Assembly: GCA_020346805.1 (NCBI GenBank) | Contig: CP070790.1 | Span: 2,954,609-2,966,394, forward strand | Source: Planctomycetota bacterium | GTDB taxonomy: Bacteria; Planctomycetota; Phycisphaerae; UBA1845; PWPN01 | Direction: 5' to 3' | Length of the DNA: 11,786 bases | In this document: positions 1 through 10,114 of the stretch, piece by piece | Layout of the letters: every line of letters starts with the position of its first letter | Position numbering within the stretch: position 1 is the first letter of the stretch | Translations under genes and position numbers: made by a program | Notes under the pieces: model-generated | Databases searched by the model: none | What the model saw: the letters and a program-made list of their open reading frames with translations, nothing else | What the model was told of the DNA's origin: nothing

Positions 1-558
1 GAATAGCCGTACGTCGTCTGGCAGATTGGATTCGAACAGTTCCTTGATCTCATCATAATCGGCGGAGTTATCGATCAAGCGATGGCGGTAAAGAATACGG
101 GCGGTATAGGCGTCAACTACGAAGGTGGGCATTTGACCGGCATATAACAGAATGGAGTCGGCGGTCTCTCTGCCTATGCCGGGGACAGCGAGCAGCTCCT
201 CGCCGAGTGAATGAAGATCTGCAGCAAACATTCGATCCAGATCCGCATCGTAGCTTTCCCAGAGCCATTCAACAAAGGCCTTCAACCGACGGGTCTTGAC
301 GTTGTAATAGCCGGCGGGGCGGATCAATTCCGCTAATTGTTGGTCGGGTATCTCCCGAAGCTGCCCCCAATTCAGGGCATCGGCCTGTTTGAGAGTTTCG
401 ATGGCCCGTTCCACGTTTCGCCATGCGGTATTCTGGGTGAGGATGGCCCCGATGATGACTTCGGTCGGGGTATCGCCCGGCCACCAGTGCTGGGGACCGT
501 AGGCCTTGTACATGGCCTCATAAAAGGCGCGGAGATTTTCAGCGGTACGCGTGCTCAT
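1..558 (-). CDS. HhH-GPD DNA glycosylase, MagIII-like (endonuclease III superfamily), 3' end outside the window
   Basis: The first 186 residues are visible, and the C-terminus lies beyond the left edge. The protein belongs to the endonuclease III superfamily, whose members excise damaged bases in base-excision repair. Residues 31-54 carry the GAILTQNTAW motif typical of the endonuclease III-related group that includes Helicobacter 3-methyladenine glycosylase MagIII. The helix-hairpin-helix is VPGIGRETAD (125-134) and the catalytic Asp is D149 in VVDAY. The position of the endonuclease III catalytic lysine (GRKTAN) holds E131, as in MagIII, which predicts a glycosylase without the lyase step. 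Whether C-terminal iron-sulfur cysteines exist cannot be seen. The ATG at 558 overlaps the TGA of the upstream sulfatase-like gene (ATGA). No good Shine-Dalgarno precedes it, so translation is probably coupled. Family is sure; substrate is inferred. Confidence 0.9.
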   Translation of the reverse strand, partial: MSTRTAENLRAFYEAMYKAYGPQHWWPGDTPTEVIIGAILTQNTAWRNVERAIETLKQADALNWGQLREIPDQQLAELIRPAGYYNVKTRRLKAFVEWLWESYDADLDRMFAADLHSLGEELLAVPGIGRETADSILLYAGQMPTFVVDAYTARILYRHRLIDNSADYDEIKELFESNLPDDVRLF

Positions 559-1949
559 CTGCTGACCGGGTCCTTGGTGAATTTGCGCCAATATTCGAGG
601 CGTTGTTTCAATACTTTGATGACCGCGCTGTATTCTCTCTCATTGTTGAGGTTATTCATTTCCTCCGGATCTCGCTTTAAGTCATATAAAATGTCGTTAT
701 CTTTTAGGTAGTCGATAAATTTGTAGTTGCTGGTAACGATGCCGCGGGCCGGGTATGGCCGGTTGTTCTGCTTGTCATACTCGAAGAATCGCTCGTTGAC
801 ATGTTGAGATGTGTCGGGATTACGGATCAGGGGCATTAATGATTGTCCCTGCATGGTAATGGGCACGTAGATATCAATCAACTCGCAAAAAGTCGGGGCC
901 AGATCAACCAGACTAACCACGCGATCGATCTTTTTCCCTTGGTTTTCCATTTTGGGGATGTGGATCAGCAGCGGGCCGCGGACCAGTTCGTCATAGAATA
1001 ATGGTCCCTGTCCGTAGAGTTTGTGTTCGCCCAGGGCCAGGCCGGTGTTGCAGGTAAAAACAATGGCGGTCTTATCCCGAAGTTTCAATTCGTCAAGCCG
1101 CTTAACCAGCCGCCCGATATTTTCGTCAGTTCGCGTAATCATGGCGTAATGTTTCGAGCGGTCCTGGAGAAGGTTTTTTTCTTTTCTCTGATAGTCTTTG
1201 ACTACCGGTAAATTACGAATAGTGTTGGGTAGTCTTCTGTTGTAAATATTGGCGGACTTAGGTAGATCAACCTTGTCTGGCGGATAGATTGATTCGGTAG
1301 CGGGCGGATAGGTAAGCGGCGGTTGCGGGGCCTTGAAACTCAACCATAAAAAGAAGGTTTTTTCTTTATGTTGATTGACGAACTCGATAGCCCGATCACC
1401 GTGCCAATCGGTTAGGAACTTTTCCACTTTAGTATCCTTACCTTGGACCCAGGCCTTGCAGTTGTTCCAGCCGGCCGGGAGTCTGACGATGGCGCTGTAA
1501 TCAGCCAATCCGAAGCCGGGTTTGGTGGTATTGGATTTGTCCAGATTCCACGTTCCGACAAAACCGCAGATGTAGTTGGCCTTTTTGAGCCGGGCGGTAA
1601 AAGTATTGGCGGTTTTGGACAGAGTCATTCCATCCGAGGTAACGTGGTGGGTATGGGGATATTGACCGGTCAGAATACAAGCCTGGCTGGGGGCGTTCTG
1701 CGGCGTCGGTGTATAGCAGCGGGTGAAATGTACGCTATCGGCGGCCAGTGTGTCCAGGTTAGGGGTTTTGACGATTTTGTTACCCTCAAAGCCGGTCATA
1801 TTGAATGCTTGGCCGTTAGTAGTGATCAAGATGATGTTCGGTTTATTGGCAGCGAGTATATGTGGGCCGATCATGCAGGCGACGATGCTGATCGAGCAGA
1901 GTCGGCAGATCAAAAATTTCAATATATTTTGAGTGTCGATATTATTCAT
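555..1949 (-). CDS. Exported sulfatase-fold protein lacking all recognisable catalytic residues (probable pseudosulfatase)
   Basis: 464 residues with a signal peptide (hydrophobic stretch about 12-33, cleavage probably after ILAA near 34), so it should act outside the cytoplasm. The fold is a type I sulfatase of the alkaline phosphatase superfamily: PNIILI near 38, LTGQYPHTHHV (93-103), TDENIGRL (274-281), LGEHKLYGQGP (306-316), VRGPLLIHIP (323-332) and a normal C-terminal region (LYDLKRDPEE, 421-430). The active site is gone. Compared with the family consensus, the metal-binding DD is N45-G46, the formylglycine Cys of CxPSR is N85 and its Arg is Q89, GKWH is GTWN (T133, N135), the His of the PHxP motif is Q209, the DH pair is N301-T302, and the late Lys is Q314. 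Hydrolysis is therefore not expected; carbohydrate or sulfated-glycan binding is a guess. Start is ATG at 1949 with a weak GAGAAG upstream. It lies 40 bp after the trkH-like gene and overlaps the glycosylase gene by 4 bp. Confidence 0.93.
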   Translation of the reverse strand: MNNIDTQNILKFLICRLCSISIVACMIGPHILAANKPNIILITTNGQAFNMTGFEGNKIVKTPNLDTLAADSVHFTRCYTPTPQNAPSQACILTGQYPHTHHVTSDGMTLSKTANTFTARLKKANYICGFVGTWNLDKSNTTKPGFGLADYSAIVRLPAGWNNCKAWVQGKDTKVEKFLTDWHGDRAIEFVNQHKEKTFFLWLSFKAPQPPLTYPPATESIYPPDKVDLPKSANIYNRRLPNTIRNLPVVKDYQRKEKNLLQDRSKHYAMITRTDENIGRLVKRLDELKLRDKTAIVFTCNTGLALGEHKLYGQGPLFYDELVRGPLLIHIPKMENQGKKIDRVVSLVDLAPTFCELIDIYVPITMQGQSLMPLIRNPDTSQHVNERFFEYDKQNNRPYPARGIVTSNYKFIDYLKDNDILYDLKRDPEEMNNLNNEREYSAVIKVLKQRLEYWRKFTKDPVSR

Positions 1950-1989: not shown

Positions 1990-3951
1990 TCATAAGTCCG
2001 TCAACTTTTCCATGGGGATCGACTCTTCGGCCGGTTGGGTAGCCGGCGTCGGTGTTTGTTCTATTGCCGGTACCGCAGGTAGTGGAGTTGGAGCGGCGGG
2101 TGGTTGATACATACACCGGAAAAGGACTATCAGCGGTACGATTCTTCCAAGCAACATGCCCAGGGTTAGTACCACCTTGCCTTGGACCGAAAGCAAAGGC
2201 GTCATGCCGCTGGTGAATCCGACATTGCAGCACGCACTGAGCGCATCGAATATGCATACCTCCATGGGCTGTGGTTCACGATAGATTAAGGTGAAGGCGG
2301 TCAGAACGAGTATTATGGTCAGGGCCATGGCCATGGCCGCGGCAATGGCCACTGCCCGGGCAACGGGCGGTCGGCGCCGGGAAAAGACGGCCCCTATCAG
2401 CAAGGCAACGACAACGATGCGTAGCCCGCCGGTTGCCCCGCCGACTCCGCCGCCGATTAGCATAAGTGGCCGCAGGACAATTTGGCTGGCCGGTGATAAA
2501 GACTCAGAATCCAATCGTACGGTCCGCATGCCGCAGCTTCGGGCGGCGATACTGTGAAACAGGCAAGCCAACCATTTGTCTCCCGGAGACATGTCTCGTA
2601 TGCGATGGGTGTCGACCGGGGCGGTCTCGGAAGGGGATTGGGTGGCCGGCAAACTCTCGGCCTGGGTGGTGTTCGGTAACTCAATGCGCCCGGGGATATT
2701 GGATTTGGGATAACGATGCTGCCATTGCTGTGTACTTTCAATGGCAAACAGTAGCCCCATCCCAATAACTATAAGAGCGATAGTGGCCAGCAAAGTTATT
2801 CTGCTGTCTTTGGAAAGCTTTTGATGGGCAATCCTTCGTCGTGTCAGCTTGTGTAATAACTCACGAATCACCGGCCCGCCGATACTCCCAATGACCATCA
2901 AGGGTAAAAGAAATATATACAAACTCATGTGGTCTCGGTAAGCAAATACGCTTTCTCGCGGCAAGGTAAGGCCCACGTTGCAGAACCCGCTGACGGCATG
3001 AAAGATGCTGGCGAACAGGCGGGCTTCGTCCTTAAATACCTCTCCGAATAGGGGGGCGGTTTGTTGGGCGGCGGCAAAGTTGGTATCGACGGTAGGATCC
3101 CAGGTATCGTAAATAGCAACCGCCCCTATGGCTTCGATCAAGAGAGTCATGATGAATACGAAACGAATCAGTTTCCTTAAACCGATGGGCGAGTAATCAT
3201 CGTTTTGGGCGCCCCAGCCGATCATTTGTCGCAACCGCCATCCAATGGCGGCACCAATGGTCAGAACCGCCAATCCCCCGATCTGTATCATGATCAGAAT
3301 AACCAGTTGTCCGACCCGGCTGAATTGGTAACCGATGTCGAGAACCGCCAGTCCGGTACAGGTAAGGGCCGCGGTGGCGGTGAACAGGCAATTGAGCCAA
3401 TGCATGGATAATTCATAACGGAACTGTCCTTGGTAGGTGCTTTCTTCGGTGACGGGATAGGCATGGGCCCAGCAAACGGGCAGGGCCAGCACTACGCTGG
3501 CGACAAGTACTGAAATAACCGCCCCGATCAGCAGTCGGCGACCGGCCGATCCGATGGTTTTTTCGCTCCATTCCTCAATCAGTCCGCGTATGCCTGCTTT
3601 GGCGATTGCCCCTGCAGCAATGATCAGGCAATAAGCGGCAGCTATACGCAGGATGATGGGTTCTCGGGAAGGATCGAATAGATACCAGGGAATGGCGGCA
3701 ATGATGAGTACGAAGTCTACCCACCAGCGTTTCAGCCGGGTTCCGAGCCCCGCTGCCGGCATCAGCATGAGCAGTCGGCTCAAAAGGAATAGTCCCAGTG
3801 CCGCCAGTAGGGTACTGTGTATGGTATTATCAGTAACCACCGGTTGGCGGAAGCCGTAGTCCAGTCCTAATCCCGCCGCTGCCGCCAGTCCCGAGGCCAA
3901 CCACATCAAAACGCAACGCTTTGGTGTTGGATTATGTAAATGTTTATTCAT
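1990..3951 (-). CDS. TrkH/KtrB-family potassium uptake transporter subunit
   Basis: 653-residue integral membrane protein of the TrkH/KtrB/HKT superfamily, the ion-conducting subunit of K+ uptake systems. All four pore loops with filter glycines are visible: TATAALTCTG (191-200), FHAVSGFCNVG (317-327), FHSIAARSCG (465-474) and FDALSACCNVG (568-578). Family signatures IGGGVGGATGG (499-509) and MLLGRIVPL (599-607) are present. Four extra hydrophobic segments (about 12-30, 46-64, 76-92, 98-118) precede the first pore unit, making it longer than KtrB (about 450 residues) or TrkH (about 485). A Pro/Thr/Ser-rich insert (about 408-455) precedes pore loop 3, and a Pro-rich tail of about 40 residues follows the last helix. 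The ATG at 3951 has AGGTG seven bases upstream. No TrkA/KtrA regulatory gene lies in the window, so its partner must be encoded elsewhere. Family certain; ion choice K+ versus Na+ inferred. Confidence 0.95.
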   Translation of the reverse strand: MNKHLHNPTPKRCVLMWLASGLAAAAGLGLDYGFRQPVVTDNTIHSTLLAALGLFLLSRLLMLMPAAGLGTRLKRWWVDFVLIIAAIPWYLFDPSREPIILRIAAAYCLIIAAGAIAKAGIRGLIEEWSEKTIGSAGRRLLIGAVISVLVASVVLALPVCWAHAYPVTEESTYQGQFRYELSMHWLNCLFTATAALTCTGLAVLDIGYQFSRVGQLVILIMIQIGGLAVLTIGAAIGWRLRQMIGWGAQNDDYSPIGLRKLIRFVFIMTLLIEAIGAVAIYDTWDPTVDTNFAAAQQTAPLFGEVFKDEARLFASIFHAVSGFCNVGLTLPRESVFAYRDHMSLYIFLLPLMVIGSIGGPVIRELLHKLTRRRIAHQKLSKDSRITLLATIALIVIGMGLLFAIESTQQWQHRYPKSNIPGRIELPNTTQAESLPATQSPSETAPVDTHRIRDMSPGDKWLACLFHSIAARSCGMRTVRLDSESLSPASQIVLRPLMLIGGGVGGATGGLRIVVVALLIGAVFSRRRPPVARAVAIAAAMAMALTIILVLTAFTLIYREPQPMEVCIFDALSACCNVGFTSGMTPLLSVQGKVVLTLGMLLGRIVPLIVLFRCMYQPPAAPTPLPAVPAIEQTPTPATQPAEESIPMEKLTDL

Positions 3952-7177: not shown

Positions 7178-7205
7178 ATGATATCGTGATTGGCTGACTA
7201 GTCAA
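7178..7205 (-). promoter_or_regulatory. Predicted sigma70-type promoter of the LysM lipoprotein gene
   Basis: On the minus strand the -35 element TTGACT (7205-7200, 5 of 6 matches to consensus) is followed after 16 bases by the -10 element TATCAT (7183-7178, 5 of 6). The -35 overlaps the TGA stop of the upstream lipoprotein gene. It predicts a start near 7171 and a leader of about 50 bases, so this gene need not depend on read-through from the glycosyltransferase pair. Confidence 0.6.
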
Positions 7206-10114
7206 CCGGCTGGGTTGGTTGCGGCTGAGTCGATCATTATCTTTACCGAATCCAGCGATTGCCGCAGGTTCTCGCGGTGGTCGGCCGGGGCAATGAGGTA
7301 ACGGATGATTTCGTTGACTTCCACAATCCGCCGGTCCGCTTTGCTTACCACCGGTTCGGGAAGGCCCATGCAATCAATTACTTTTATATTCGCCGGCAGG
7401 TTGACGAATCCTAACTTGGTCGGTGACAAACCAAAGGGCCGCCAGGCGGCAACCACCGCTTGCCCGTTATCCTTTTCAAAATATAAGAGTCGACTTCCAT
7501 CAGGCGCGTCTATCCATCGTTTCGCGGTTGCATCGTTCAGTAAGGAGGTCATTAGGTCGAAGGCGACCAGGGCTGCCCGGGGCGAAAGGTCTTTTTCGTG
7601 GAGACATCGGGAAGTTTCATCGTAGATAGAACGCACCGGTGACAAAACAACTGCGTCGGAACATACCATTTCCACCCCGGCCAGAGATCGGATTAGCAGC
7701 GAACGTACAAATCGAGACGCGGACCTTACCGGATCGATGGGATATGCCAATAGCTCAATCGGTCCATCGGCAGCGAGAGGATTGTTTACTGTCGTTTTGG
7801 CTGATCGATTTGGGGCACCGCCGATGTGGGCGGGAACGCGAAGATCCCAAAGATGTTGGTTTTGGGCTCCCAGCGTTTCCAAGGTCGGCTCGCATGCTTC
7901 GGGAATTTGTGTTTCAATACATGTAAAGCCGGAAATCCCAGTGGTGAACTTCGGACGATTACTGGGGGAAGCGGACTCATCGTCCCATCCGGACAAATAT
8001 TGTATCAGTTTCATCTCGGGAGCGTGTACGGTCAGCAAGTCGCTGATCCACGCCAGTTGATTTGCGTACTCCTGTATCGGCTGGGCGGATATGGCCGGTG
8101 GGTGTATCACCGCGCCGATGGGCAGAATCTCATTGTCTTTAAACAGTTGTTCCAGAAACATTTTCCAAAGGGCTTTGGATTTGGGGAGGGTAAGACCGAC
8201 AAAGATCTCGACCTGGGCTCGCTTGCATTGGGCTACCAACAGTCTCCAGAAGGTAAAGTCGTATAGGCCCGGGCGAATTTGCACACGGTGTGCCGGTAGA
8301 TCCATTCGTACCCAACCGGCGCCGATATGTGTTGTTCGCATGGAAACATTCGCGCCATCCGTCGACAACCCGAACATATTGCTCAGTGGGACGGGATCGT
8401 TCAGATCGATGGTCGCTATAGCCAGGTTGGCACGAGAAATTATTTTCGATTCCCCCGGCTCGCCGCTCCAGAGGGTGGCCAGCACGCGGTAGTATCCCCG
8501 GGGTAATTGTAGTTTAATTGTGTCATTCAGCACTCCGGTGGCCGGGATGATCGGGGTAGTGGTCTTGGTCCAAACCACACGGTCCCAGGCATCCAGCACG
8601 TCGACGGCTAATTTGCCGACTTTAATATCGGGTGTAGAGGTTGCTTTTTGATCGGTATCTGATTCAGCAGCGGGTTTAATGGTTGCCTTTGCCGAATCGC
8701 TTTTTGTCTGCTTGGCCGGATAAGCCCGTAATCGGATGCCGAAGGATACCGGACTTTTCAAATCTAATAGGTTCGACAAATCAGTCGGGTTGGGTACCGG
8801 ACCAAAGAGGCCCACTTCAACAGGTTCCGAAGGTATATAAGGCTTTTCCGAATAAACATTGGTCAATGCCACCGCGTCCAGCCAACAGCGGTTAGGCTTG
8901 GATAAACCGTCACCGAGAACGTCGAACAGTAGTTCGGTCGATGCCAGTTCTACACGCTCGTCATAGGTTCGGGCCGTTATGGTGAATGTCTTTGTAAATC
9001 GCTGCCAATCATTCGTGAGTTGGAAGGACGATTGTTCGATGGTTCCTTTGCGGTTACGAAGCGTAGCAATAATTGTCGTAGGACGCTCGACTCGGGCGTG
9101 GAAACTGAGATACCATTTTAAAATGCCGGACCGGCTGGTAATTGATTTTGGATTCAAATCCAACGGTCCAAAGACAAGTCGCCCGGTCTCATCGGCAATA
9201 TGTATCAGCATAGAGTTTTCGCCGACCACCGCATCGTAATCGAATTCCCATTGTGAGGGGATGGACATCTCATCACCGTTGGGCCAATATTTAGTGGCGC
9301 TGGTGAAGAACAAATGTTGTCCGGTTTCGAAATCTCCACCTGCGATCAGGTTGATAGGTTGGACAACCGGTTGGGAAGTCGACTTGCCGGCGGATTTGGG
9401 CATACTTTGGGGCAGCGTCTCTTTGCCTGTAAGGGTAATACGGTCGATAGTGAAGATTGTGTCGGGACTTGTTATGTCGATGCGTATGGTAATCGGCCCG
9501 ATGGTAGGATGAAACCGCAGCCGATAGTGTTGGCTTTCCCAGCCCGGGCTGACATCGGCCACGATCGGCAGGTCCAGGGTATGTAATGCGCCTGAACCAT
9601 CGATGGCCCGTAACGACAGGGAAATACCGGACAGTGCTTTAACCCGCCTCGAAGATCGGCAGGTGAAACGTACTTCCAGGCGTACGTCTCGTCCCGCCAA
9701 TAGTGTAGGATTGATAATCCGCTGAATCCCGCACATTTCAAACGGATCTTTGGGAGCGAGCAGTTCGATTCCCTTGGTATCGTCGAGACGAATAGGTCTT
9801 ATGGCAGGTTTACCAATGATTTGCCAGCCGGGACTCCCTTGGGAAATAACCTCGTCAAATTCTTCAACCAGTAGTGTTTTCCATCCATTGCTGGGCGCTA
9901 AGTGTCTTGTTCTGGCATAGGTGTCCATTCTTCCGGCAGTTTCAAACCAATCGGCATATTTCAGATCACGGGTCTCGATGGGGTTTTTCAATAACAATAT
10001 ACCGCCGCTGACCCGCTGGCCCACTAATTTACCCCCTTGTGGTTCAACACACCCGACGAGCGGGATCAAAATACTGATAACCAGTATGCGGATCAGATAC
10101 ATGGAAGCGTTCAA
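7202..10114 (-). CDS. Large lipoprotein with carbohydrate-binding-like and degenerate glycoside-hydrolase-like regions
   Basis: 970 residues; lipoprotein signal with lipobox LVGC (Cys22), so it is lipid-anchored in the envelope. I do not recognise a named family for the whole protein. Visible regions: a beta-rich, jelly-roll-like region (about 80-230); a low-complexity linker (231-252); a second such region opening with NLIAGGDFETG (255-265), the usual start of CBM4/9-type modules, to about 420; a beta-rich part with a Lys/Ala/Thr-rich insert (470-498); and a TIM-barrel-like region (about 578-830) with PGLYDFTFWRLLVAQCKRAQVEIFVGL (written here only as 615-641, key PGLYDF and VEIFVGL) resembling clan GH-A enzymes, then a C-terminal beta region. 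Where these enzymes have WNEP the protein has GWDDE (709-713), and no nucleophile Glu is evident near IELLAYP (786-792). The frame starts at TTG 10114, overlapping the glycosyltransferase stop (TTGA); ATG 10102 is an alternative that gives an 18-residue signal peptide. Confidence 0.85.
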   Translation of the reverse strand: MNASMYLIRILVISILIPLVGCVEPQGGKLVGQRVSGGILLLKNPIETRDLKYADWFETAGRMDTYARTRHLAPSNGWKTLLVEEFDEVISQGSPGWQIIGKPAIRPIRLDDTKGIELLAPKDPFEMCGIQRIINPTLLAGRDVRLEVRFTCRSSRRVKALSGISLSLRAIDGSGALHTLDLPIVADVSPGWESQHYRLRFHPTIGPITIRIDITSPDTIFTIDRITLTGKETLPQSMPKSAGKSTSQPVVQPINLIAGGDFETGQHLFFTSATKYWPNGDEMSIPSQWEFDYDAVVGENSMLIHIADETGRLVFGPLDLNPKSITSRSGILKWYLSFHARVERPTTIIATLRNRKGTIEQSSFQLTNDWQRFTKTFTITARTYDERVELASTELLFDVLGDGLSKPNRCWLDAVALTNVYSEKPYIPSEPVEVGLFGPVPNPTDLSNLLDLKSPVSFGIRLRAYPAKQTKSDSAKATIKPAAESDTDQKATSTPDIKVGKLAVDVLDAWDRVVWTKTTTPIIPATGVLNDTIKLQLPRGYYRVLATLWSGEPGESKIISRANLAIATIDLNDPVPLSNMFGLSTDGANVSMRTTHIGAGWVRMDLPAHRVQIRPGLYDFTFWRLLVAQCKRAQVEIFVGLTLPKSKALWKMFLEQLFKDNEILPIGAVIHPPAISAQPIQEYANQLAWISDLLTVHAPEMKLIQYLSGWDDESASPSNRPKFTTGISGFTCIETQIPEACEPTLETLGAQNQHLWDLRVPAHIGGAPNRSAKTTVNNPLAADGPIELLAYPIDPVRSASRFVRSLLIRSLAGVEMVCSDAVVLSPVRSIYDETSRCLHEKDLSPRAALVAFDLMTSLLNDATAKRWIDAPDGSRLLYFEKDNGQAVVAAWRPFGLSPTKLGFVNLPANIKVIDCMGLPEPVVSKADRRIVEVNEIIRYLIAPADHRENLRQSLDSVKIMIDSAATNPAG

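Follow-up and report, generated by a model that had tools for sequence, protein, structure and literature searches.

In an 11,786-nucleotide stretch of a Planctomycetota contig (CP070790.1; here called the window), we found a gene whose product belongs to the formylglycine (S1) sulfatases by sequence family and fold and in which all ten catalytic residues examined are replaced. On balance, and with confidence slightly above even, we regard the product as a secreted pseudo-sulfatase in which catalysis is gone and selection for a non-catalytic role maintains the fold. The sequence gives good support to the view that the machinery was lost and the gene retained, and the protein would have no sulfatase chemistry. 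Export to the periplasm or the cell surface is probable; we are less sure of the work done there, which might be binding a partner or a polymer, or serving as a structural piece. The gene and the positions concerned are as follows.

555..1949, minus strand: pseudo-sulfatase gene, an open reading frame of 464 aa (Pfam, alignment, predicted model)
1848..1949, minus strand: probable signal peptide, residues about 1 to 34 (hydrophobic stretch LCSISIVACMIG, mean hydropathy 2.35)
1812..1817, minus strand: N45-G46 replacing the metal-binding Asp-Asp (alignment; codons AAC, GGC)
1695..1697, minus strand: N85 replacing the formylglycine Cys (alignment; codon AAC)
1683..1685, minus strand: Q89 replacing the Arg of CxxxR (alignment; codon CAG)
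1545..1553, minus strand: T133 and N135 replacing the Lys and His of GKWH (alignment; codons ACG, AAT)
1323..1325, minus strand: Q209 replacing His (alignment; codon CAA)
1044..1049, minus strand: N301-T302 replacing the metal-binding Asp-Asn/His/Gln (alignment; codons AAC, ACC)
1008..1010, minus strand: Q314 replacing Lys (alignment; codon CAG)

An earlier note on this DNA had described these ten replacements beside preserved scaffold motifs, in an intact frame with a signal peptide and without a named family of its own. All ten codons read as described, and a HMMER alignment to 6pt6_B, a solved chain titled as a C84S mutant, pairs them with D, D, S84, R, K, H, H, D, Q and K. The quoted motifs are present in the translation, and the frame is open throughout, with no ambiguous base in the window. 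Only one canonical residue is left among 11 scored, Ser88, which lies outside the ten. The hydrophobic stretch before residue 35 makes the signal peptide plausible, short of proving it; in the predicted structure of the window protein this segment is a helix of lower confidence, and the sulfatase fold is intact, as structure prediction had been proposed to check. The protein matches Pfam Sulfatase at 129.1 bits (cut-off, 25) and SGSH_C at 105.7 bits, while all its NCBIfam matches are far below their cut-offs (best, 204 versus 481 bits), in line with the lack of a named family.

The nearest solved S1 sulfatases (PF00884) are 6hr5 (an S1_25 module), 5g2v (BT4656) and 6pt4/6pt6 (PsS1_NC), but the window protein differs from enzymes of this class in lacking all ten residues, with neither Cys nor Ser at the formylglycine position. 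Its counterparts of what we take to be the metal ligands of S1 sulfatases (Asp-Asp ... Asp-Asn/His/Gln) are N45-G46 and N301-T302, and what are presumably the Lys and His of the sulfate site (K133, H135, H209 and K314) have become T133, N135, Q209 and Q314. The nucleophile motif, given as [CS]-x-[PA]-x-R in the SulfAtlas paper (PMC5066984) and in which Cys or Ser is converted to formylglycine, is broken by N85 and Q89. Section 7 of that paper mentions nine sequences from Planctomycetes and Lentisphaerae with Ile or Leu for the catalytic Arg, perhaps inactive; the passage treats that one position, with no clade, locus or selection (PMC5066984). An analogy only is offered by YejM/PbgA (LapC), which is essential, resides in the inner membrane and carries a periplasmic domain of the hydrolase superfamily; its fold is related and its status as an enzyme disputed. 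According to PMC7576196, earlier work judged YejM non-enzymatic for want of Cys/Ser and metal, and that paper itself argues for a Mg-dependent phosphatase; YejM differs from the window protein in its 5TM membrane anchor and conserved Thr site (PMC7576196). The window protein scores 22.3 bits against a cut-off of 825 for the LapC_YejM_PbgA family, a marginal similarity that leaves it outside that family. No published description of such a dead-sulfatase family was found under the terms searched (titles and abstract openings).

A search of about 5.8 billion protein sequences gave 1107 matches, and among the best 120 of the 1107 the first 56 relatives (at least 273 bits) form a discrete set, the next match having 216 bits. 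Forty-nine of the 56 became rows of our tree, the partial P0030, P0052 and P0054 to P0056 being omitted and P0021 and P0042 entering as identical sequences from their genomes. The ten residues are complete in 14 of these 49 clade relatives (P0002 to P0004 are complete members) and incomplete in 35. At the ten positions relatives read SDSRKNQDGR, NHSRQEPTST, DSWRQHCDGR, NDDQANHNGK, ADAQRAAESK and others. The replacements differ by lineage, contrary to the expectation that N/G/N/Q/T/N/Q/N/T/Q would be conserved across a clade, and the idea of a neutral-polar site kept for shape without charge fails as well, as clade relatives carry charged or bulky residues there. As their sequences read, dead members cannot work by the known sulfatase mechanism. 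A Pfam sulfatase match was nevertheless obtained for all 48 clade members scanned, dead and complete, several dead members are named, for example, arylsulfatase in public sources, and confident folds were predicted for two clade proteins, the window protein included. Long linkers rich in Pro, Ala, Ser and Thr join the signal peptide to the sulfatase fold in the dead members P0036, P0049, L054 and L099, and a Pro/Ala/Thr linker has low confidence in the predicted structure of one member. Among 57 clade rows, a hydrophobic N-terminal stretch was not found in 8, and several of these 8 are truncated or short at the N terminus.

Outside the clade, the 64 proteins P0057 to P0120, among the matches listed, are mostly canonical in an alignment whose K314 column is shifted in many of them; the exceptions include the Ser-type P0065 and P0093 and proteins, P0100 among them, whose 135 column holds Gly. 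One outsider, P0088 (29% identity), has Asp aligned with Cys, Arg with Lys, and Gly and Gln with the two His, and is perhaps a separate case of catalytic loss. A protein from another class (G736), 41% identical to the catalytically complete relative P0003, is canonical by eye, and viral contigs yielded a single weak partial match (35%).

Since complete relatives sit both inside and just outside the clade, catalysis appears to have been lost; we infer this direction because the outgroups are canonical and the joint regain of several residues is implausible. We removed the ten catalytic columns and built a maximum-likelihood tree from 72 rows, 43 of them dead and 29 canonical; it needs at least four state changes, three of which are forced by well-supported branches, and six when columns 80 and 313 are also removed. 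The best tree has five all-dead groups, and of 200 bootstrap trees 0% show a single origin of the dead state. Grouping all 43 dead rows as one clade was rejected (AU p 0.0056), whereas a single clade of the 42 without P0037, which still keeps eight of the ten residues, was not (AU p 0.214). At least two losses of catalysis are thus supported, and more than two are likely.

Exactly one copy of the gene is carried by 10 of the 13 genomes of the window's GTDB family (E≤1e-60), and in all ten most of the readable catalytic set is lost. Eight copies could be read completely, and none of them retains more than four of the ten residues; in G399 an in-frame TAG breaks the copy, which keeps one residue, Asp301, and the G398 copy, which ends at a contig end, keeps none of six readable. 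At the same threshold no match to the gene was found in G346, G397 and G355. Because of these three genomes and the TAG in G399, the gene may be dispensable in some genomes. Among 397 genomes sampled from the class, 10 matched at E≤1e-65 in searches that scored few candidates per genome, eight from the window's family and two, canonical and 36% identical, from another family of the order. Another genome of the order from outside the window's family (G405) has four canonical copies; these sister sulfatases (L172, L173) form two adjacent pairs, with lipobox-like N termini in the three read. We also considered that the dead protein might be a paralogue accompanied by an active copy in its own genome, but this was not seen: with at most 14 candidates scored per genome, the other P0003 matches inspected in family genomes are more distant canonical sulfatases.

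Selection was estimated from two relatives of one genus (G263 and G364), for which 478 codons give a dN/dS of 0.197 and the last 430 a dN/dS of 0.162 (dS 0.22), values that rest on this one pair, to which the window gene does not belong, and that lie below 1, the threshold that the earlier note had proposed for such a test. For the neighboring glycosylase ORF of the same pair the ratio is 0.36, over a frame running into the overlap, and other ORF pairs in the same stretches range from 0.04 to 3.2, many of them probably spurious frames. Residues lost, fold kept and purifying selection, the marks of a maintained pseudoenzyme, are thus found together, selection being read from one pair and the fold from prediction. 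On the other hand, the median node-to-tip distance is 1.17 in the dead rows (n = 43) versus 0.68 in the canonical clade rows (n = 14), a sign of relaxed constraint. If the gene were a relic heading for loss, with catalysis dropped and slow decay ever since, these faster rates would be expected, as would the TAG in G399, the three family genomes without a match and a variable pocket. However, deeply diverged dead relatives, at 34 to 57% identity to the window protein (P0001), have full-length open frames, 24 columns are invariant over 48 dead and complete members, dN/dS is 0.16 to 0.20 and the predicted folds are confident, so that we consider such decay quite unlikely. A simple pseudogene is likewise unlikely given the low dN/dS, though the dead rows are faster.

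The former pocket varies more than the protein average. Pairs drawn from 42 dead rows (L101 was excluded as a near-copy of P0051) differ at catalytic positions in 77% of cases, compared to 53% for all positions and 44% for neighbors within two residues (permutation fraction, 0.0016), in a sample whose rows are related and whose dead group is defined by loss at these same positions; among the 14 canonical clade rows the catalytic positions never differ. The variability of the catalytic positions is above average in the NH group (fraction, 0.036), average in the SN group, and below average, although not significantly, in the SD subclade (11 rows). Thr occupies the Val80 column in 35 of 43 dead rows versus 0 of 29 canonical rows, and the change to Thr goes in the same direction as the loss in two to three of three independent pairs on supported branches, a suggestive coupling for which three to four independent pairs exist and the sign test cannot reach 0.05.

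One explanation would make the old pocket a lineage-specific recognition site, through whose diversifying residues a lectin-like pseudoenzyme would bind glycans, sulfated or not, and glycan binding by the window protein, which had been suggested before, is possible. The pocket positions varying above the protein average, with their neighbors below it, and the frequent Thr at position 80, near the nucleophile in sequence, speak for it, but free drift after catalytic loss predicts much the same, the pocket evolves no faster than average within the SD subclade, and the few Val80 pairs fall short of significance. Moreover, PsS1_NC, solved and outside the clade, has Thr aligned with position 80, which makes Thr no general mark of a dead enzyme, and we find this explanation rather doubtful. 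Still less credible, and very unlikely in our estimate, is an enzyme that has evolved a new active site within the sulfatase fold: S85, K133, D301, G302 and R314 are kept in all 11 SD rows, but no replacement set is common across the clade, and in the window protein all ten residues are gone.

Constraint of another kind was found at twenty positions where 85% or more of the dead and 85% or more of the canonical clade members share a residue that no more than 34% of outgroup sulfatases have, among them W161, W182 and P223 and, in the C-terminal part, E386, F388, R402, Y440 and W454. Many of these residues may only hold the fold, yet the set suggests that the clade had a function before catalysis was lost and that this function does not depend on the pocket. 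For the pseudo-sulfatase that we favor, the working surface would lie away from the former pocket, because the pocket differs by lineage while the clade-specific residues are fixed in dead and complete members alike. That common set also suggests a second function predating the loss, which the ancestral sulfatase may already have had and which would have let catalysis lapse. Against our preferred reading stand the faster dead rows, the single-pair dN/dS, the three family genomes lacking a match, the TAG in G399 and the 8 of 57 rows in which no hydrophobic N-terminal stretch was found.

Two neighboring genes lie on the same strand in the window.

1..558, minus strand: HhH-GPD DNA glycosylase gene, 5' part, MagIII/EndoIII-like (PF00730)
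1990..3951, minus strand: TrkH-like cation transporter gene (PF02386), 40 bp upstream of the pseudo-sulfatase gene

In nine of the ten family genomes that carry it, the gene is directly upstream of the HhH-GPD glycosylase gene on the same strand; the best NCBIfam match of the glycosylase, below cut-off, is 3-methyladenine DNA glycosylase. In the window and in the two genomes of genus g5, the glycosylase gene probably starts at an ATG that shares bases with the stop codon of the pseudo-sulfatase gene (ATGA); near-overlaps occur elsewhere, and the gap between the two genes is about 50 bp in G236 and about 390 bp in G398. On the other side, dprA is directly upstream of the gene in G379, G281, G012 and G399; for G398 we deduce the same arrangement from the ends of two contigs, about 0.7 kb separating dprA from the first residue matched. 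The L101 record has dprA near the gene, another ORF lying between them, and no glycosylase match in 17.8 kb. TrkH is absent from the relatives' stretches examined and is not a conserved neighbor. One genome (G257) carries the gene and gives no match to the glycosylase, G355 shows the reverse, with the glycosylase alone, and neither was found in G346 and G397 at the thresholds used. Across the order, the glycosylase is present in 73 of 114 genomes, 10 of them of the window's family, and no clade sulfatase was seen beside it in any of the 20 inspected among the 63 others, over about 1.5 kb or less on each side (about 8 kb in five).

The overlaps and the conserved adjacency would also fit a leader reading frame kept mainly for translation into the glycosylase gene. 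Such a role leaves the amino acid constraint and the retained fold unexplained and sits badly with G257 and with the gaps in G236 and G398, and we give it hardly any credence. As DNA-handling neighbors have no apparent functional link to an exported protein, we would read the locus as inherited gene order with probable co-transcription. Farther along the window (7202-10114, minus strand), a 970-aa ORF, whose N terminus looks lipobox-like and which matches nothing in Pfam or NCBIfam, lies upstream of a LysM-protein gene and recG.

The window genome has 100 PF00884 matches, and we surveyed stretches covering 96 of them for ORFs of at least 140 aa, scoring 11 positions. Ninety-six ORFs matched a sulfatase profile and 66 had no gap at the scored positions; of the latter, 62 have 9 to 11 canonical residues, two have 8, one has 5 and the window gene has 1, the 30 gapped ORFs (many of them fragments) being outside this count and some scores below 11 possibly reflecting alignment shifts. 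Loss at ten positions is not usual among the sulfatases of this genome. Two long sulfatase-superfamily ORFs, L256 (G000:C1:631600-634200) and L241 (G000:C1:1606100-1608800), have no CxxxR and keep GKRH and SDHG; they are possibly other non-formylglycine members of the superfamily. Just past the right end of the window, a canonical-looking N-terminal sulfatase match (G000:C1:2966497-2967180) sits in a 329-aa frame (L248) cut short in the assembly.

PF00884 genes are usually taken as polysaccharide-degrading capacity, and because dead members score as sulfatase in Pfam, estimates of degradative capacity take in dead enzymes as well. With members that are complete, partly dead or fully dead, this one gene forms a natural series in which to ask how an enzyme turns into a non-enzyme and which function survives catalytic loss. 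A bolder idea, which we hold to be unlikely, is that one orthologous sulfatase repeatedly lost catalysis in Phycisphaerae owing to a second role, binding at the cell surface, its former active site becoming a freely diversifying or positively selected recognition pocket. If true, a dead sulfatase would have become the basis of a family of receptor-like proteins.
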